DNA of 64,000 bases, from NCBI GenBank assembly GCA_021325355.1, contig JAJPHI010000024.1, forward strand, positions 1-64,000. The letters run 5' to 3'. Origin of the DNA: Pseudomonadota bacterium. GTDB taxonomy: Bacteria; Desulfobacterota; Binatia; Binatales; Binataceae. Positions within the stretch are counted from its first letter, which is position 1; each line of letters starts with the position of its first letter. Positions 24,400-61,428 of this stretch are shown here, in pieces. The notes under the pieces were generated by a model. That model was given only the letters and a program-made list of their open reading frames with translations. It had not been told where the DNA came from and did no database searches. A program made the translations under genes and the position numbers.

Positions 24400-24597
24400 C
24401 GATCCTCCGCTTCAACCAGGAAAGGCTGGCTGCAGTTTGGTGGGGTAGCGCCTCCGCCACGCCTCGAATTGCCAAACCGTCATTGCTTTAGACGAGGTAA
24501 ACCGCGCTATTTTTGTAGTCAAAATTCACCCCGTCAAGTCAAGCTACGGCTAATTGCTTGCCCGAAACGAATCCAGTGTAAATATTGGTCGCGGCGG

Positions 24598-25500
24598 ATG
24601 AATACCGAGAAGCTTAGCGCACATCCAATGGCGATTCGCGGGGTGATCCCGCAGGGGTCGCGCGCGCCTCATCGCCCGGCAACCGCTCCCCCCTCTGCTG
24701 CGCCGCGCCGCGCCCACGAGCTGCGCCTGATGTGGCGCAACACCCGGATGGTCGTGCTGAGCGTGCTGACCGCCGCCCTCTATGCCGCGGTGCTGGTACC
24801 GTTCAAGGTGGTCCCGCTCATCCCGGGCGTAACCGAACTGCGCCCCGGCAATGCGATTCCGGTGGTCTGCTCATTTCTTTTCGGACCCGCCGCCGCCTGG
24901 GGTTCCGCGATCGGCAACATGATTGGCGATTTTTTCGGCGGCGTCGGTCCCGGTGACGTCTTCGGCTTCTTCGCCAACCTCGCGTACGGTTATATCCCGT
25001 ACAAGGTCTGGACGATTGTCGCCGCGCCCGACCAGAGCCCGGTCGCCCTGACGCCCGGCACTCTCGCGCGCTACGTGCTGGCGGCTCTGGCCGCCAGTAT
25101 GCTCTGCGCCGACCTCGTCGGATGGGGCGATAATCTCCTCGCGCTGCGGCCCTTCTGGGTCCTCGGCAATATCATCATCATGAACAACATGGTGGCGGCC
25201 ATCGTGCTCGCGCCGCTGCTGCTCGCGGCGATCTATCCGCGCGTACGCCGCGCCCATCTGCTGTTCACCGATTTGATGCCCGAGATCGAAGCGTCGGCGC
25301 GTCCCCGGCGGCTGGTCGGCTTCGCGATGCTGCTCGGCGGCGAAGTGACCGCCTGGCTTGCCGGGAATCTCGTCTCCGCCGGCTACTGGAGGCCCGCGCT
25401 GGTGCCGGCGGCTTTCAATGTCGCCCCTTACACGCGGGCCGTCGCCCTCACCGTCAGTCCCGCGATCGTGATCGCGATAATCGGGATGCTGCTGCTTTGA
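24598..25500 (+). CDS. ECF transporter S component (substrate-binding membrane subunit)
   Basis: A 300-residue integral membrane protein with about six to eight hydrophobic helices after a ~50-residue polar N-terminus. The block ELRPGNAIPVVCSFLFGPAAAWGSAIGN followed by GDFFGGVGPGDVFGFFANLAYGYIPYKVW is typical of the QueT/vitamin-type S components of energy-coupling factor importers. The substrate is not identifiable: S components define specificity and this one is not close enough to riboflavin, thiamine, biotin or cobalt proteins for me to assign it. The start is uncertain (no strong ribosome-binding site). Stop overlaps the ATPase gene start (TTGA), forming an S-A1A2-T operon. Confidence 0.85.
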   Translation: MNTEKLSAHPMAIRGVIPQGSRAPHRPATAPPSAAPRRAHELRLMWRNTRMVVLSVLTAALYAAVLVPFKVVPLIPGVTELRPGNAIPVVCSFLFGPAAAWGSAIGNMIGDFFGGVGPGDVFGFFANLAYGYIPYKVWTIVAAPDQSPVALTPGTLARYVLAALAASMLCADLVGWGDNLLALRPFWVLGNIIIMNNMVAAIVLAPLLLAAIYPRVRRAHLLFTDLMPEIEASARPRRLVGFAMLLGGEVTAWLAGNLVSAGYWRPALVPAAFNVAPYTRAVALTVSPAIVIAIIGMLLL

Positions 25501-27218
25501 GCGCCACGCCAGCAAGCTTCGCCCCTGCCGCCGCGCTCGAGCGCGTCACCTTCAGCTATCGAGACAGCGCGAGCCGCGCTCTCTGCGAGATTGATTTCGT
25601 CCTCAGGCCCGGTGAGATGGTCGGGATCATGGGCGCTTCCGGCGCGGGCAAATCCACCCTCGTCAAATGTCTCAATCGTCTGGTCCCGGCCTTCGAGGAC
25701 GGCGACTTCAGCGGTCGCGTCACGGTCGCCGGCGCTTCGTCTGACGACCGTCCGGTGTCCGATCTCGCGGCAACCGTCGGGATGGTTTTTCAGGACTTCG
25801 AGGCCCAGCTTTTCTCGACCAACGCCGGGCTCGAAGTGGCCTTCGGCCTGCAGCAGGCCGGCCTGCCGCGCGAGGAGATCATCGCCCGCATTGGGCCGGC
25901 GCTCGAAGCCGTCGGTCTCGGGGGTTTCGAGAGCCGCGATCCCACGACCCTTTCGGGCGGCGAAAAGCAGCGCCTGGCGATAGCCGCGGTGCTCGCGATG
26001 CGCCCACGGATCATTGTCTTCGACGAGCCTACCACCGACCTGGATCCCGAGGGCCGCGCCGAAGTTCTCGAACTGATCCAGAGCCTGCGCGGCCAGGGGC
26101 TCAGTCTGATCCTGATCGATCACGACGCCGAAGCCTTGCGCGCATGCGATCGCGTTCTGCTGATGCGCGACGGCGCGATTATCGCCGAGGCCTGCCCCGA
26201 GCAGATCATGCCCCGCGTCGCCGATCTCGAGAGCGCCGGCGTCCGCCCGCCCGATCTCAATCGCGCCTGGGCGACGCTCGGCCTCGAACCCCATCCGCGA
26301 GATCTCGCGACGGCTGAACGCTATCTGCGCGAACGGCTCGGCGAACGCCTGGCCGCGACCGACAACGCCGCGCGAGACGCCCGGCCCATCGCGCCGGATC
26401 GCAATCTGCTGACGGTGAGTGCGCTGCGTTTCGCCTATTCAACCGCCGCCCCCGCCATCGAGGATGTCAACCTCACGATCGCCGCGGGCGAGTTTGTCGC
26501 AATCGTCGGCCGCAACGGGTCGGGCAAAACCACGCTCGCGAAGCTGATCGCCGGTCTTTTGACTCCGGCCGCCGGTGTCATCCGCCTCGACGGCCGCGAT
26601 CGCCACGAGCTCAGCGCGCTCGAGGCGGCGCAGGCGGTGGGCTACGTCTTCCAAAACCCTGACCACCAGATTTTCGCCGCGACGGTCGAGGATGAGGTCG
26701 CCTTCGGACCGCAAAATTTCAAACTCGCGCCTGACGAGGTGTCGCGACGGGTCGCGGAGGTTCTCGCCGCCGTTGATCTGACCGCCCTCCGCTCGCGCGA
26801 TCCGTTTCTGCTGAGCAAGGGCGAACGCCAGCGGCTCGCCGTCGCCGGGATCCTCGCCCTGCGCCCCCGCCTGCTCATCCTCGACGAGCCGACGACCGGC
26901 CTCGACTATCGCGAACAGCGCCGCATGATGACTCTGATCGAAGAGCTCAACCGTTCTGGTATCGCGATCGTAATCATCACGCACACGCCATGGCTTATCG
27001 CGGACTATGCCCGCCGGGTCGTCCTGATGCGCCGCGGGCGCATCCGCTTCGACGGTTCGGTGAGCGAATTTTTCGCCGATGAGGATTTGCTGAAGCTGGC
27101 CTCGTTCCGCCCGCCCGAAATCAACCTGCTCGCCCGCCGGCTCGGCCTCGACGCCCTGAACGTTCAGCAGTTCGTCACCGCCATCCGCGCTCTCCGGTCG
27201 CGCGATCCTGCCGCCTGA
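25497..27218 (+). CDS. ECF transporter fused ATPase (EcfA1-A2 in one chain)
   Basis: A 573-residue cytoplasmic protein with two complete ABC ATPase domains. Domain 1: Walker A GASGAGKST (46-54), signature LSGGEKQR (152-159), Walker B IIVFDEPTTDLD, H-loop LIDHD. Domain 2 from about residue 303: Walker A GRNGSGKTT (338-346), signature LSKGERQR (439-446), Walker B LLILDEPTTGLD, IITHTPW. The second signature has Lys in place of the usual second Gly. Energises uptake together with the S and T components encoded on either side. The TTG start overlaps the TGA of the S-component gene, and the stop overlaps the ATG of the T-component gene by one base, so all three are coupled. Confidence 0.93.
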   Translation: MSATPASFAPAAALERVTFSYRDSASRALCEIDFVLRPGEMVGIMGASGAGKSTLVKCLNRLVPAFEDGDFSGRVTVAGASSDDRPVSDLAATVGMVFQDFEAQLFSTNAGLEVAFGLQQAGLPREEIIARIGPALEAVGLGGFESRDPTTLSGGEKQRLAIAAVLAMRPRIIVFDEPTTDLDPEGRAEVLELIQSLRGQGLSLILIDHDAEALRACDRVLLMRDGAIIAEACPEQIMPRVADLESAGVRPPDLNRAWATLGLEPHPRDLATAERYLRERLGERLAATDNAARDARPIAPDRNLLTVSALRFAYSTAAPAIEDVNLTIAAGEFVAIVGRNGSGKTTLAKLIAGLLTPAAGVIRLDGRDRHELSALEAAQAVGYVFQNPDHQIFAATVEDEVAFGPQNFKLAPDEVSRRVAEVLAAVDLTALRSRDPFLLSKGERQRLAVAGILALRPRLLILDEPTTGLDYREQRRMMTLIEELNRSGIAIVIITHTPWLIADYARRVVLMRRGRIRFDGSVSEFFADEDLLKLASFRPPEINLLARRLGLDALNVQQFVTAIRALRSRDPAA

Positions 27219-28000
27219 TGCTGACCTCGCTCTACCTCGATCGCGCGAGCGCCATCCATCGGCTGCATCCGGTGGTCAAGCTCTTTGGCCTCTTTGTCGT
27301 TTTCTGGTCGGTGTTCTGGGTTGATCGGCCGCTGGCGCTCGTCCCTATCGCGGTGCTGCTGATTCTCGCCGCCCAGGTCGCCGGCGCCTGGCCAAACTTT
27401 TATGCCTTCCGCTGGTTCCTCATCCTGATGATTCCACCGACGATGATCGAGTGGATGGCGGTCTATCGTCAGGGCCCGCCGCTCATCGATTTCTGGTTCA
27501 TTCACCTGAGCGGCGCGGCGCTCCGCTACGGCTTCGGCAAAGGGCTTCGCCTCGCGGAACTGCTCGCCGCATCGATCCTCTTCCTCTCCACCACCACGGT
27601 CGAGGATTTCAGCCAGAGCCTCATCAATCTGCGGATCCCCTATCGAGTGGCGTTCGCGATGAGCCTCGCGTTTCGCCTGGTGCCGCTCTTTATGGACTCA
27701 GCATTGACGGTGGTTCAGGCCCAACGGCTGCGCGGGTATGACTTCGACCAGGGGAATGTCTTCGAGCGACTGCGCCGCTACGTCCCCGCGATGATCCCCG
27801 TGTTCATGGGCGCCCTGCGCCGGGTGAATAATATGGCGATGGCGCTCGAAGCCCGCGGCTTCGGCGCCGGTGTGCGGCCGACCAACCTGAGCGCCTATTC
27901 GATGACTCGCCGCGACGTAGTCGCCTGCGCGCTCCTCATCGTAATCGGGACCGTCTATTTCCTGCTCTATCTGTATGGCTACGGCGCCGTCACGCCCTGA
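27218..28000 (+). CDS. ecfT: ECF transporter transmembrane T component
   Basis: A 260-residue inner-membrane coupling protein with about five to six hydrophobic segments. It begins with the family pattern SAIHRLHPVVKLFGLFVVFWSV, and the cytoplasmic coupling helices carry the characteristic short motifs: AQRLRGYDF (near 170) and ALEARGFGAG (near 208), both variants of the ARG motifs that contact the ATPases. Completes the S-A-T importer operon. The ATG overlaps the ATPase stop codon by one base. Confidence 0.93.
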   Translation: MLTSLYLDRASAIHRLHPVVKLFGLFVVFWSVFWVDRPLALVPIAVLLILAAQVAGAWPNFYAFRWFLILMIPPTMIEWMAVYRQGPPLIDFWFIHLSGAALRYGFGKGLRLAELLAASILFLSTTTVEDFSQSLINLRIPYRVAFAMSLAFRLVPLFMDSALTVVQAQRLRGYDFDQGNVFERLRRYVPAMIPVFMGALRRVNNMAMALEARGFGAGVRPTNLSAYSMTRRDVVACALLIVIGTVYFLLYLYGYGAVTP

Positions 28001-28080
28001 CGCCGGAGCGTTGTGAACGGTCCGCAGAACCTCCCTCGCGCTTATTTCACACGCGCGACGGGCGTGGGTTATACAAGCGC

Positions 28081-28587
28081 GTGACTCCCAAGCCATCGCT
28101 GGCCGGTCTGCCGCCGCCCTTCGACCAACTGCTCGAACGGTACGAGCGCGAGATCCTGCGATTTATCATGCGCACGACGCGCGATCGCGAAGATGCGCTC
28201 GATCTGTTTCAGGAGACCTGGATGCGCGCGTATCGCGCCTACCCGCAACTCAAATCCGCCGCCGACCTGCGTGCATGGCTTTATCGTATCGCGGCCAACC
28301 TCTGCCTCAACCGCTCGCGCGATCGTGCGCGTCGCGCCCGCGTCTTCGCCGACGGCGTCGCGCTGCCCGAACACGACGGCGTCCGGCGCGGCGACCCGCG
28401 CGAACACTGGCTCAGCGTGAAGAAACTGATCGAGCGCTTACCACGCAAACAGCAGGCCGCCATCATGATGCGCAAGGTGGCGGGGCTTGAATACGACGAA
28501 ATCGCGCAGGCCCTCGGTTGCAGCAGCGAGTCAGCGCGCGCCGACGTTTACCAGGCCATGAAAAAACTCAGGATGGTTGAGGAGTAG
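28081..28587 (+). CDS. ECF (group 4) RNA polymerase sigma factor
   Basis: A 168-residue sigma-70 family factor containing only regions 2 and 4. Region 2 spans roughly residues 20-85 with DREDALDLFQETWMRAYRAYPQL and LRAWLYRIAANLCLNRSRD; region 4 spans about 115-165 with LPRKQQAAIMMRKVAGLEYDEIAQALGCSSESARADVYQAMKKL. It would direct transcription of a small regulon. No anti-sigma gene is adjacent; instead the stop codon is only four bases before an Ada-like methyltransferase gene, so the two are almost certainly co-transcribed. The start is a GTG. The AGGAG of the next gene lies inside its last codons. Confidence 0.92.
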   Translation: MTPKPSLAGLPPPFDQLLERYEREILRFIMRTTRDREDALDLFQETWMRAYRAYPQLKSAADLRAWLYRIAANLCLNRSRDRARRARVFADGVALPEHDGVRRGDPREHWLSVKKLIERLPRKQQAAIMMRKVAGLEYDEIAQALGCSSESARADVYQAMKKLRMVEE

Positions 28588-28591
28588 TTTT

Positions 28592-29371
28592 ATGGACGAC
28601 GCGCTTCAACGAGAAAACGCGCTAATCGACTCCGTCCTTCCGCTGGCGCAGCGGCGAATCGCCGCCGCCCTGCGTCGTATCCGCCGCCCCACGGCGACGA
28701 TCGCCGTCGCCGCGACCCGCCTCGGCCGTCTGCTCGTCGCCGCGAGTGATCGCGGACTCCTCACGGTCCGCTATGCCGACGACGAGGACGACACGAGCTT
28801 CATCGCGGATCTGCGAAGGCTCTTCGATCTGGCCGAAAATCCGACCCTGGCCGCGGACGTCAGCCGCGAAATCGATGCGCTGCTGAACGGCTGTCCGGAG
28901 CCGATTACCGCGCGTCCGGTTGACCTGAGTCTCGTCACCAGCGCGTTCGAACGCCGCGCGCTGGCGCGGCTGCGCGCCGTGCCGCCCGGCGCAGTTACCA
29001 CCTATCGCGCGCTCGCCGCCGCCGCCGGATCGCCCGACGCGCAGCGCGCGATCGGGAATACGGTCGCCGCCAACCCGTTGGCCATCTATGTCCCGTGCCA
29101 TCGGGTCATCAAATCCGACGGCGCGATCGGCAACTATGGTGGCGGCGTCCAACGTAAAGTCGCCCTGCTGCGGGCCGAAGGCTTTGTCGCCGATGGTGCC
29201 GGTCGCGTGCCGGCGACCGCGGTCTACGGTCACCTCGGCACGCGCATCTTTTGCCGTCTCACCTGCGGTGCGGCGCGCCGCGCACGCCGCGAACGGATGC
29301 TGATCTTTGCCGAGCCGGCGCGGGCCGCCGCAGCGGGTCTTCGTCCTTGTAAGCTCTGTCGGCCCGGCTGA
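28592..29371 (+). CDS. O6-methylguanine-DNA methyltransferase with C-terminal Ada-type zinc domain
   Basis: A 259-residue protein with Ada parts in reversed order. Residues about 40-195 are an Ogt/MGMT suicide methyltransferase: RLRAVPPGAVTTYRALA, then the active-site PCHRV with Cys169, and GAIGNYGGG. Residues about 214-258 match the Ada metal-binding phosphotriester domain: GTRIFCRLTCGAARR, ending GLRPCKLCRP, with Cys221, Cys225, Cys253 and Cys256, the C-x3-C…C-x2-C spacing of E. coli Ada (Cys38, 42, 69, 72). The AraC-type DNA-binding domain of Ada is missing. Thus it may repair both O6-methylguanine and methylphosphotriesters but cannot itself be a classical Ada activator. Start at 28592 has an AGGAG site overlapping the end of the sigma factor gene. 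Confidence 0.88.
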   Translation: MDDALQRENALIDSVLPLAQRRIAAALRRIRRPTATIAVAATRLGRLLVAASDRGLLTVRYADDEDDTSFIADLRRLFDLAENPTLAADVSREIDALLNGCPEPITARPVDLSLVTSAFERRALARLRAVPPGAVTTYRALAAAAGSPDAQRAIGNTVAANPLAIYVPCHRVIKSDGAIGNYGGGVQRKVALLRAEGFVADGAGRVPATAVYGHLGTRIFCRLTCGAARRARRERMLIFAEPARAAAAGLRPCKLCRPG

Positions 29372-29421: not shown

Positions 29422-29769
29422 CTATTCGGTTTCAGATTGCGATTTAAGCTGCTCGATCTGCTGACGCTGGTTCTCGATCTCCTGCTGCTGTTGCTGCAGT
29501 TGCGACTGCGTCTGGGCGTTGGCGTTCTCCTGGTTCTGCATCGAATTGCCTACGGCATAACCGCCCACACCACCGATGGCGCCGCCAATCGCCGCCCCGG
29601 CCGCCGGATGACCCACAGCGGCACCGATAATCGCGCCGGTGCCGGCTCCTAACACCGCGCCGATACCGGTACCCTTCTCACGGGTCGTCAGCGGTTGACC
29701 CGAGCATCCGCCGATTAAAAACGCTGTTGCCAGAACCAGAGCTATCGTTGCCAACCACGGTTTACGCAT
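29422..29769 (-). CDS. Glycine-zipper lipoprotein with Gln-rich coiled-coil tail
   Basis: A 115-residue exported lipoprotein: signal peptide ending FLIGGC (lipidated Cys22), a glycine-zipper region (GTGIGAVLGAGTGAIIGAAVG… AAIGGAIGGVGGYAVG, about residues 34-76) of the YMGG/17 kDa surface antigen type, and a C-terminal coiled coil rich in Gln and Glu. Glycine-zipper lipoproteins insert in or associate with the outer membrane; a stress-related envelope role is common but not shown here. The ATG at 29769 has a GGAG site at 9 bases; an 18-residue longer form would place charged residues before the signal peptide. Confidence 0.87.
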   Translation of the reverse strand: MRKPWLATIALVLATAFLIGGCSGQPLTTREKGTGIGAVLGAGTGAIIGAAVGHPAAGAAIGGAIGGVGGYAVGNSMQNQENANAQTQSQLQQQQQEIENQRQQIEQLKSQSETE

Positions 29770-30010
29770 AATGTCGTCTCCTCTCCCCTGTCGAAGCCGG
29801 TCATCCATAAAGGGATACGGCAAAGCTCTCTTTATCGTTTACCAAGCTCAGCCTCAGCACTTTTCGTACCGCAAGGACAGCGATGTTTTGGCATTTATGG
29901 GTAGTTTTGGATGTATGAAGACAAATCGGGCTTGAGCTGGGAGCGAATGTCGCGCGCACATAACGCAAAAAGGTTACACGAAAGCCTAACTGCGTCGATT
30001 CACCGCCATA

Positions 30011-60379: not shown

Positions 60380-61428
60380 GCGGGCCCCTTGGGTTGACGC
60401 TGGTCGGCGCGGCGCGGCTCGACCGCGATAACCCCGCATCGCCGAAGCTTGGCTGCGAAGGTGGTGCGCTTCAGTCCCAGGAGCCGCGCGGCCGCCTGTT
60501 TGTTGCCGCCGGTCTGTTTGAGGGCCTCGTTGATCATGCGACCTTCGAGTTCGCGCACGAGTGCGGTCAGGTTGATGCCGCTGGCGCTCAGTTCAGCGGG
60601 CGGCCGCGCGTCAGTCCATCTGGTGTCAGGCGCGAGATTGGGCGGCAGCAATCCGGCATGGATCTCGCCGTTTTCGCTGAGAATCACCAGCCGTTCAATC
60701 ATATGCTCGAGCTCGCGCACATTCCCCGGCCAGTCGTATGACCACAGTTGCACCATCGCCTCGCGTGACACCGTCCAGGTGCGCCCCGGCATCCGCGCGC
60801 GCATCCGCGCCAGGAAATGCTCAATCAGGATTGGGATATCGGAACGTCGTTCGCGCAGCGGCGGAATCACGATCGGGAGCACCTGCAGGCGATAGAACAG
60901 ATCTTCCCGGAAGGCCCCTTTTTTCACCGCCGCGGGCAAATCGGTGTTGCTGGCCGCGATTACCCGGACGTTGACCGGCGTCCAGCGATCGGCGCCGACC
61001 GGTCGCACCGCGCCGTCTTCGAGAACGCGCAGCAGCTTGGCCTGCAACGCGAGCGGCATCTCGCCGATCTCGTCAAGGAAAATCGTGCCGCCGTTGGCCG
61101 TGAGGAACAAACCGCCGCGCGCTCCGGCCGCGCCGGAAAAGGCACCCCGTTCGTGACCGAACATTTCCGATTCGAGCAGTTCATGGGGAATCGCGGCACA
61201 GTTGACCGGCACAAACGGCCCATTGCGCCGGCTCGCGCGCGCATGAATCGTCCGCGCGACCACCTCCTTACCCACGCCGCTTTCGCCCGTGATAAGGACG
61301 GTTACGTCGGTCGCCGCGACCTTATCGATCAATTCGCGGAGCTTAACGATGCTCGGATGCTGGCCGACGAGCGGATAGTCGGCCGTCTCCGCCTGACCGG
61401 TCTCTGGCAGCCCATTCTCTGTTGCCAC
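60376..61428 (-). CDS. Sigma-54-dependent AAA+ transcriptional activator without receiver domain
   Basis: A 350-residue NtrC-type activator. After only ~20 N-terminal residues it enters the AAA+ domain: VLITGESGVGKEVVA (Walker A 48-55), ESEMFGHERGAFSGA with the sigma-54 loop GAFSGA (95-100; Ser instead of Thr in the usual GAFTGA), TIFLDEIGEM (Walker B), and WPGNVRELEHMIERL. The C-terminal Fis-type HTH is ALKQTGGNKQAAARLLGLKRTTFAAKL. The usual N-terminal receiver is absent and encoded instead by the overlapping downstream gene. Starts with GTG. Confidence 0.92.
   Translation of the reverse strand: MATENGLPETGQAETADYPLVGQHPSIVKLRELIDKVAATDVTVLITGESGVGKEVVARTIHARASRRNGPFVPVNCAAIPHELLESEMFGHERGAFSGAAGARGGLFLTANGGTIFLDEIGEMPLALQAKLLRVLEDGAVRPVGADRWTPVNVRVIAASNTDLPAAVKKGAFREDLFYRLQVLPIVIPPLRERRSDIPILIEHFLARMRARMPGRTWTVSREAMVQLWSYDWPGNVRELEHMIERLVILSENGEIHAGLLPPNLAPDTRWTDARPPAELSASGINLTALVRELEGRMINEALKQTGGNKQAAARLLGLKRTTFAAKLRRCGVIAVEPRRADQRQPKGPA

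Follow-up and report, generated by a model that had tools for sequence, protein, structure and literature searches.

For many ECF sigma factors, including those of a group encoded next to O6-methylguanine methyltransferases, neither an anti-sigma factor nor a signal is known. How such a sigma factor might be controlled, and which genes it might control, is the question raised by a two-gene operon of Candidatus Binataceae bacterium, which consists of an ECF sigma factor gene and a DNA methyltransferase gene and lies in the stretch of 64,000 nucleotides analysed here (contig JAJPHI010000024.1, hereafter the window). The association of the two genes is already known in outline: in the sections of PMC8999054 considered here, the group ECF122 is described as having no cognate anti-sigma factor and as being located next to 6-O-methylguanine DNA methyltransferases, and this methyltransferase neighbour is listed as possibly regulatory.

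The features of the locus are collected in Table 1. The sigma protein matched the Pfam families Sigma70_r2 (59 bits) and r4_2 (53 bits) as well as TIGR02937 (88 bits against a cut-off of 42.9), and its possession of these two regions only places it among the ECF sigma factors. A gap of 4 bp separates its gene from the methyltransferase gene; this gap, the coordinates and the residues named in an earlier note on this DNA were all correct on recheck. Energy-coupling-factor transporter genes are located directly upstream (window 24469-28000; a QueT-like S component, a double ABC ATPase and CbiQ), which share the abbreviation ECF with the sigma factor and have no relation to it. A small ORF encoding a glycine-rich, lipoprotein-like product (29422-29823, minus strand) is convergent with the methyltransferase gene.

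Table 1. Positions of the operon, its putative promoter and the protein domains in the window
Feature	Position	Strand	Remarks
Putative promoter	28046-28073	+	-35 TTCAC at 28046-28050, -10 GGGTTATA at 28066-28073; 7 nt before sigma start
ECF sigma factor gene	28081-28587	+	168 aa, regions 2 and 4 only; GTG start
Methyltransferase gene	28592-29371	+	259 aa; N-terminal helix, Ogt and C-terminal Ada zinc domain; ATG start
N-terminal helix (aa 2-30)	28595-28681	+	From predicted structure and alignment
Ogt/C-Ada domain (aa 36-198)	28697-29185	+	Conserved Y138, R152, N161, C169, H170, E196
C169 codon	29096-29098	+	Methyl acceptor in PCHRV motif
Ada_Zn_binding domain (aa 210-258)	29219-29365	+	C221, C225, C253, C256

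The methyltransferase contained the Pfam domains DNA_binding_1 (Ogt; 97 bits, aa 119-197) and Ada_Zn_binding (48 bits against a cut-off of 23), and no AraC or HTH family was detected in it by the Pfam search. In its AlphaFold model (pLDDT 89.5), the Ogt part matched C-Ada (1sfe), a fold that also matched 1yfh, and the C-terminal part, comprising the last 50 residues, matched N-Ada (1zgw) with an rmsd of 1.7 and 45% identity. The earlier description, in which the Ogt core is N-terminal, the Ada zinc domain C-terminal and the AraC part missing, was borne out by both Pfam and the model. Likewise, the assignment of Cys169 and of the four zinc cysteines agreed with the PCHRV motif and with an alignment in which C221, C225, C253 and C256 paired with the four zinc cysteines of E. 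coli N-Ada. In this alignment C221 is the equivalent of Ada C38, and a leucine is found at the position of Ada R71, the residue that contacts the A-box (the roles of C38 and R71 are described in PMC4437013). The zinc domain spans positions 17-64 of the 65 profile positions and is thus a shortened N-Ada. In 15 relatives, neither the catalytic residues nor the four zinc cysteines varied.

Based on its DNA_binding_1 domain, PCHR active site and catalytic residues, the protein belongs to the Ogt/MGMT enzymes, with which it shares the PCHRV site and the conserved Tyr, Arg, Asn, His and Glu, and from which it differs in its extra C-terminal zinc domain and its linkage to a sigma factor. With Ada it shares the four-Cys N-Ada zinc domain, though placed C-terminally; the AraC-type domain and the order Zn-HTH-Ogt were not found, the order here being Ogt-Zn, and the NCBIfam Ada equivalog was matched at 141 bits, under its cut-off of 345. 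Both proteins thus have the two methyl-acceptor domains in one suicide protein (PMC4437013), whereas the domain order is reversed in the window protein, which has no AraC-type part. Its zinc domain is the sole Ada zinc domain of the genome, in which one further Ogt gene is present.

The pairing with a sigma gene follows the domain order. Among fetched proteins with unique Ogt cores, an ECF sigma gene was directly upstream in 60 of the 67 with the Ogt-Zn order, compared with 0 of the 17 with the Zn-Ogt order of Ada, a tally that rules out a chance pairing or an artefact. Three of the seven Ogt-Zn loci with no adjacent sigma gene were at contig ends. The earlier note had named homologous loci lacking the sigma gene as a refutation of its reading, and the neighbourhoods in other genomes came out in favour of the note. 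Plain Ogt proteins had an ECF sigma gene upstream in 31 of 119 cases (unique Ogt cores), largely from Actinobacteria and Chloroflexota, in a sample that was drawn by similarity to the window protein and is no census. In the first 20 loci, the sigma gene was directly upstream in all but one truncated contig and one paralogue, and a class-wide search with further loci extended the pairing to other families of Binatia; among 96 related genomes, a short zinc domain of the C-terminal type occurred in most genomes of the same family. The locus of bacterium HR23 and two Chloroflexota loci were added to the survey, which is thin outside Binatia because the contig profile scan ranked mostly plain Ogt. 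In the Ogt tree the labels were strongly grouped, and the resolution was poor. A broken or rearranged canonical Ada in one assembly was ruled out by the single open frame in dozens of genomes, and a third conserved gene as the anti-sigma factor by the lack of any such gene common to the phyla. At actinobacterial loci, including L132 and L137, a second ogt gene often precedes the ECF-ogt pair, and at L132 an AlkA-like glycosylase ORF follows it, which suggests an alkylation-repair cluster around these pairs.

The candidate regulator is the methyltransferase itself. In 16 Ogt-Zn relatives (13 from a second Binatia family, one from a third family, one from another genome of the phylum, and bacterium HR23), an extra 85-90 aa at the N-terminus formed a helical domain with the HxxxCxxC motif of ZAS zinc anti-sigma domains. 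ZAS domains are known as inhibitors. The residues C11, H37, C41 and C44 of this pattern were invariant in the 12 aligned proteins. Weak matches were obtained to Pfam zf-HC2 in 10 of these 12 domains, each under the curated cut-off, and to the NCBIfam RsrA anti-sigma model in 9 of 12; a sequence-profile search of the PDB placed RslA (3hug) and ChrR (2q1z) on top, again weakly. Of the 16 Foldseek matches of the predicted four-helix domain, 15 were RslA, ChrR, RsiW and DdvA, with probabilities up to 0.97 and E-values no better than 0.25, hardly exceptional for a domain as small as 60-90 aa; structure comparison gave VIA Z 8.1, 7.0 and 5.6. Like RsrA, RslA, ChrR and RsiW, the 16 relatives have Cys...HxxxCxxC, a matching fold and a gene directly after that of the ECF sigma factor, and such a domain in this place looks like what would be expected of a cognate anti-sigma factor. 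What sets them apart from these ZAS anti-sigma factors is the fusion of the domain to a DNA-repair methyltransferase. Since relatives bear a ZAS domain matching RslA, ChrR and RsiW, the methyltransferase is a probable anti-sigma factor. The earlier statement that the sigma factor has no anti-sigma partner is therefore correct for the neighbouring genes and does not extend to the methyltransferase, which is itself the candidate. Downstream of one ZAS-bearing methyltransferase gene (L052:4857-5241), a small ATL-type alkyltransferase-like protein is encoded, with PWQRV replacing PCHRV, and L223-L228, L230, L231 and L234 have an Ogt-like short ORF at the same place.

The window protein differs from these relatives in that the Cys/His motif is absent from its residues 1-35; the motif is also absent from the plain Ogt proteins with ECF neighbours in Actinobacteria. 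The N-terminus of the window protein is a single predicted helix, which aligned with the last ZAS helix of the relatives in the same register (hhalign P 0.012, probability 3.5%), and at this probability homology to ZAS is not claimed. A possible intermediate domain with no zinc ligands is present in three further Ogt proteins linked to an ECF gene (P 0.016). These observations are consistent with a ZAS domain that was reduced in the window's family. Because the window protein has lost the zinc anti-sigma motif, we can only infer that it brakes the sigma factor in this species.

Positive control is conceivable instead, in which the methylated methyltransferase would aid the sigma factor as a co-activator or a DNA-bound recruiter, with the zinc domain bound to DNA near the promoter. 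The four zinc cysteines are retained, and methylated E. coli Ada likewise recruits RNA polymerase (PMC4437013). However, 31 ECF-linked Ogt proteins have no zinc domain, the leucine stands at the A-box-contacting R71 position, and the AraC part is absent. The inhibitory character of ZAS domains also speaks against activation, and we regard positive control as improbable.

What the sigma factor may transcribe was approached through a promoter-like motif. The sigma gene of the window is preceded by a dedicated form, TTCAC-N14-17-GGGTTNTA; in the window's family, TTCAC-N14-17-GGGTTATA is found upstream of the sigma genes and ends 5-7 nt from the start codon. The mRNA is probably leaderless, because the promoter of the window ends 7 nt before the sigma start. 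In a whole-genome search by pattern, the strict motif occurred in 24 of 41 Binataceae genomes and nearly always at the sigma-methyltransferase operon, with few sites elsewhere and 5 sites in the reversed control. Across phyla, a TCAC-to-GTYW spacing of 17 or 18 was present in 58 of 91 sigma-methyltransferase operons, while 1.4 were expected from shuffling. Actinobacterial ECF-ogt pairs have CTCAC...CGTCTAC upstream, which we take to resemble an ordinary ECF promoter. The window has one more promoter-like match, at 60923, which falls within what reads as a sigma-54 activator-like gene on the opposite strand and was dismissed as chance. The position and conservation of the TTCAC promoter suggest that it is read by the sigma factor.

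Copies of this motif were found at other dealkylation genes. With the motif relaxed by one base, exactly two sites were present in the genome of 3.36 Mb, one at the window operon and the other just ahead of the genome's second and last Ogt gene. A looser motif occurred in relatives upstream of 12 of 30 genes of PF09859, which according to its Pfam description is an oxygenase acting on damaged DNA, against 0.03 expected; the strict TCAC-N17-18-GTYW was present at 2 of 30, and the figure of 12 depends on the -10 variant G(G/T)GTT, which was adopted after these PF09859 sequences had been viewed. The same variant, applied unchanged to stand-alone ogt genes, was found upstream of 8 of 25 relatives (0.023 expected) and in only 8 of 682 windows of stand-alone ogt loci overall. 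Sigma-less Ogt-Zn paralogues also had the motif, at L245 and, in variant form, at L053. The window genome's own PF09859 gene had only a poor motif match. The other relaxed-motif sites were about as numerous as those of the reversed control, and the 18 examined mostly had no repair gene. In each of two genomes, at L245 (G018:C35:57045-58558) and L242 (G004:C6:40396-41882), a PF09859-type gene and a sigma-less Ogt or Ogt-Zn paralogue are convergent. In L256 and L257 (G029:C343 and G020:C329, one genus), the motif precedes an alpha/beta-hydrolase-like ORF located about 0.7 kb ahead of a PF09859-type gene, possibly in one operon. As judged from promoter sequences, the copies at dealkylation genes look like an alkylation regulon, and it is most probable that the sigma factor acts on its own operon and, in trans, on other dealkylation genes.

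The same copies bear on whether the methyltransferase might be a mere target, with the ECF sigma factor controlled by its own transcription, by proteolysis or by an unlinked anti-sigma factor. A role as target is likely in any case, for the sigma-less paralogue and the stand-alone ogt genes have the same promoter, and the window protein has no recognisable anti-sigma motif. Such an arrangement would, however, leave unexplained both the strict adjacency of the two genes and the fact that 16 relatives have an anti-sigma domain on the methyltransferase, and it would still require a separate alkylation sensor, with no third gene common to the phyla to supply it; we consider it unlikely, though the most serious of the alternatives. 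A further possibility is redox or zinc sensing, in which the ZAS domain would respond to oxidants as does RsrA, a redox-sensing anti-sigma factor, and the methyltransferase would be attached merely because both stresses co-occur. The invariant C11/H37/C41/C44 is indeed the type of pattern found in redox-sensing anti-sigma factors, but pairing and promoter persist without the motif in the window's family and in plain Ogt pairs, and the inferred regulon consists of dealkylation genes, which makes this explanation very improbable.

The reading that we favour, and hold to be somewhat better than an even bet for the operon family, is a self-amplifying alkylation switch in which a suicide methyltransferase restrains the ECF sigma factor. 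In the undamaged cell, the methyltransferase would bind the sigma factor and bar it from RNA polymerase. Upon alkylation, C169 would be methylated from O6-methylguanine and C221 perhaps from methylphosphotriesters; irreversible methylation, or depletion of the unmodified methyltransferase, would then release the sigma factor. From TTCAC-N14-17-G(G/T)GTT, the freed sigma factor would transcribe its own operon, the stand-alone ogt and, in several of the relatives, the PF09859 oxygenase gene. Since each molecule works once, damage would set the demand for fresh enzyme, as it does in the Ada response of E. coli. For the window itself, sigma binding is the least supported step. The methyltransferase of this species may bind its sigma factor, and methylation may be the releasing signal.

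The Ogt active site is proposed here as the sensor common to all pairs. Because 31 ECF-linked plain Ogt proteins have no zinc domain, the arrangement does not depend on this domain, and the signal shared by all pairs may be methyl transfer to C169. In the zinc-bearing branch, sensing of methylphosphotriesters would be added by the C-terminal N-Ada-like domain. The earlier idea that the sigma factor takes the place of the AraC activator gained from the specificity of the pairing for the Ogt-Zn order and from the promoters at dealkylation genes, and the sigma factor does seem, from these sequences, to take the transcriptional role played by the AraC part in Ada. What that idea missed was the link from sensor to sigma factor: it had cast the zinc domain as the sensor, while the ZAS domain of 16 relatives makes an anti-sigma activity of the methyltransferase the more likely link. 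The proposed switch resembles the E. coli Ada response in the self-amplifying control of dealkylation genes (PMC4437013) and differs from it in that transcription is handed to a sigma factor.

Compared by gene neighbourhood, the window operon and its relatives are like ECF122 in having an adjacent O6-methylguanine methyltransferase and no separate anti-sigma gene; they depart from the group, as described in those sections of PMC8999054, in the C-terminal Ada zinc domain, the ZAS domain, the promoter and the regulon. In the literature searched, which included few subscription papers and not the main ECF classification paper, we found no report that an O6-methylguanine methyltransferase bears an anti-sigma domain, nor any of the TTCAC promoter or the alkylation regulon. 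With the anti-sigma domain that some relatives carry on the methyltransferase, a concrete, testable mechanism and a defined signal can be proposed for the ECF-ogt pairs. That the anti-sigma factor is a suicide repair enzyme, whose acceptance of an alkyl group from a lesion frees the sigma factor and thereby gives several phyla an Ada-like response with no AraC part, appears to us evenly balanced. According to PMC8262859, Binatota are methylotrophs, which makes alkylation from endogenous sources a plausible pressure. If the proposed switch is right, it would be a second design of the adaptive response to alkylation, in which the repair enzyme is sensor, brake and product at once, and it would place such a response in Binatia, Chloroflexota and perhaps Actinobacteria, lineages in which it has been little studied.
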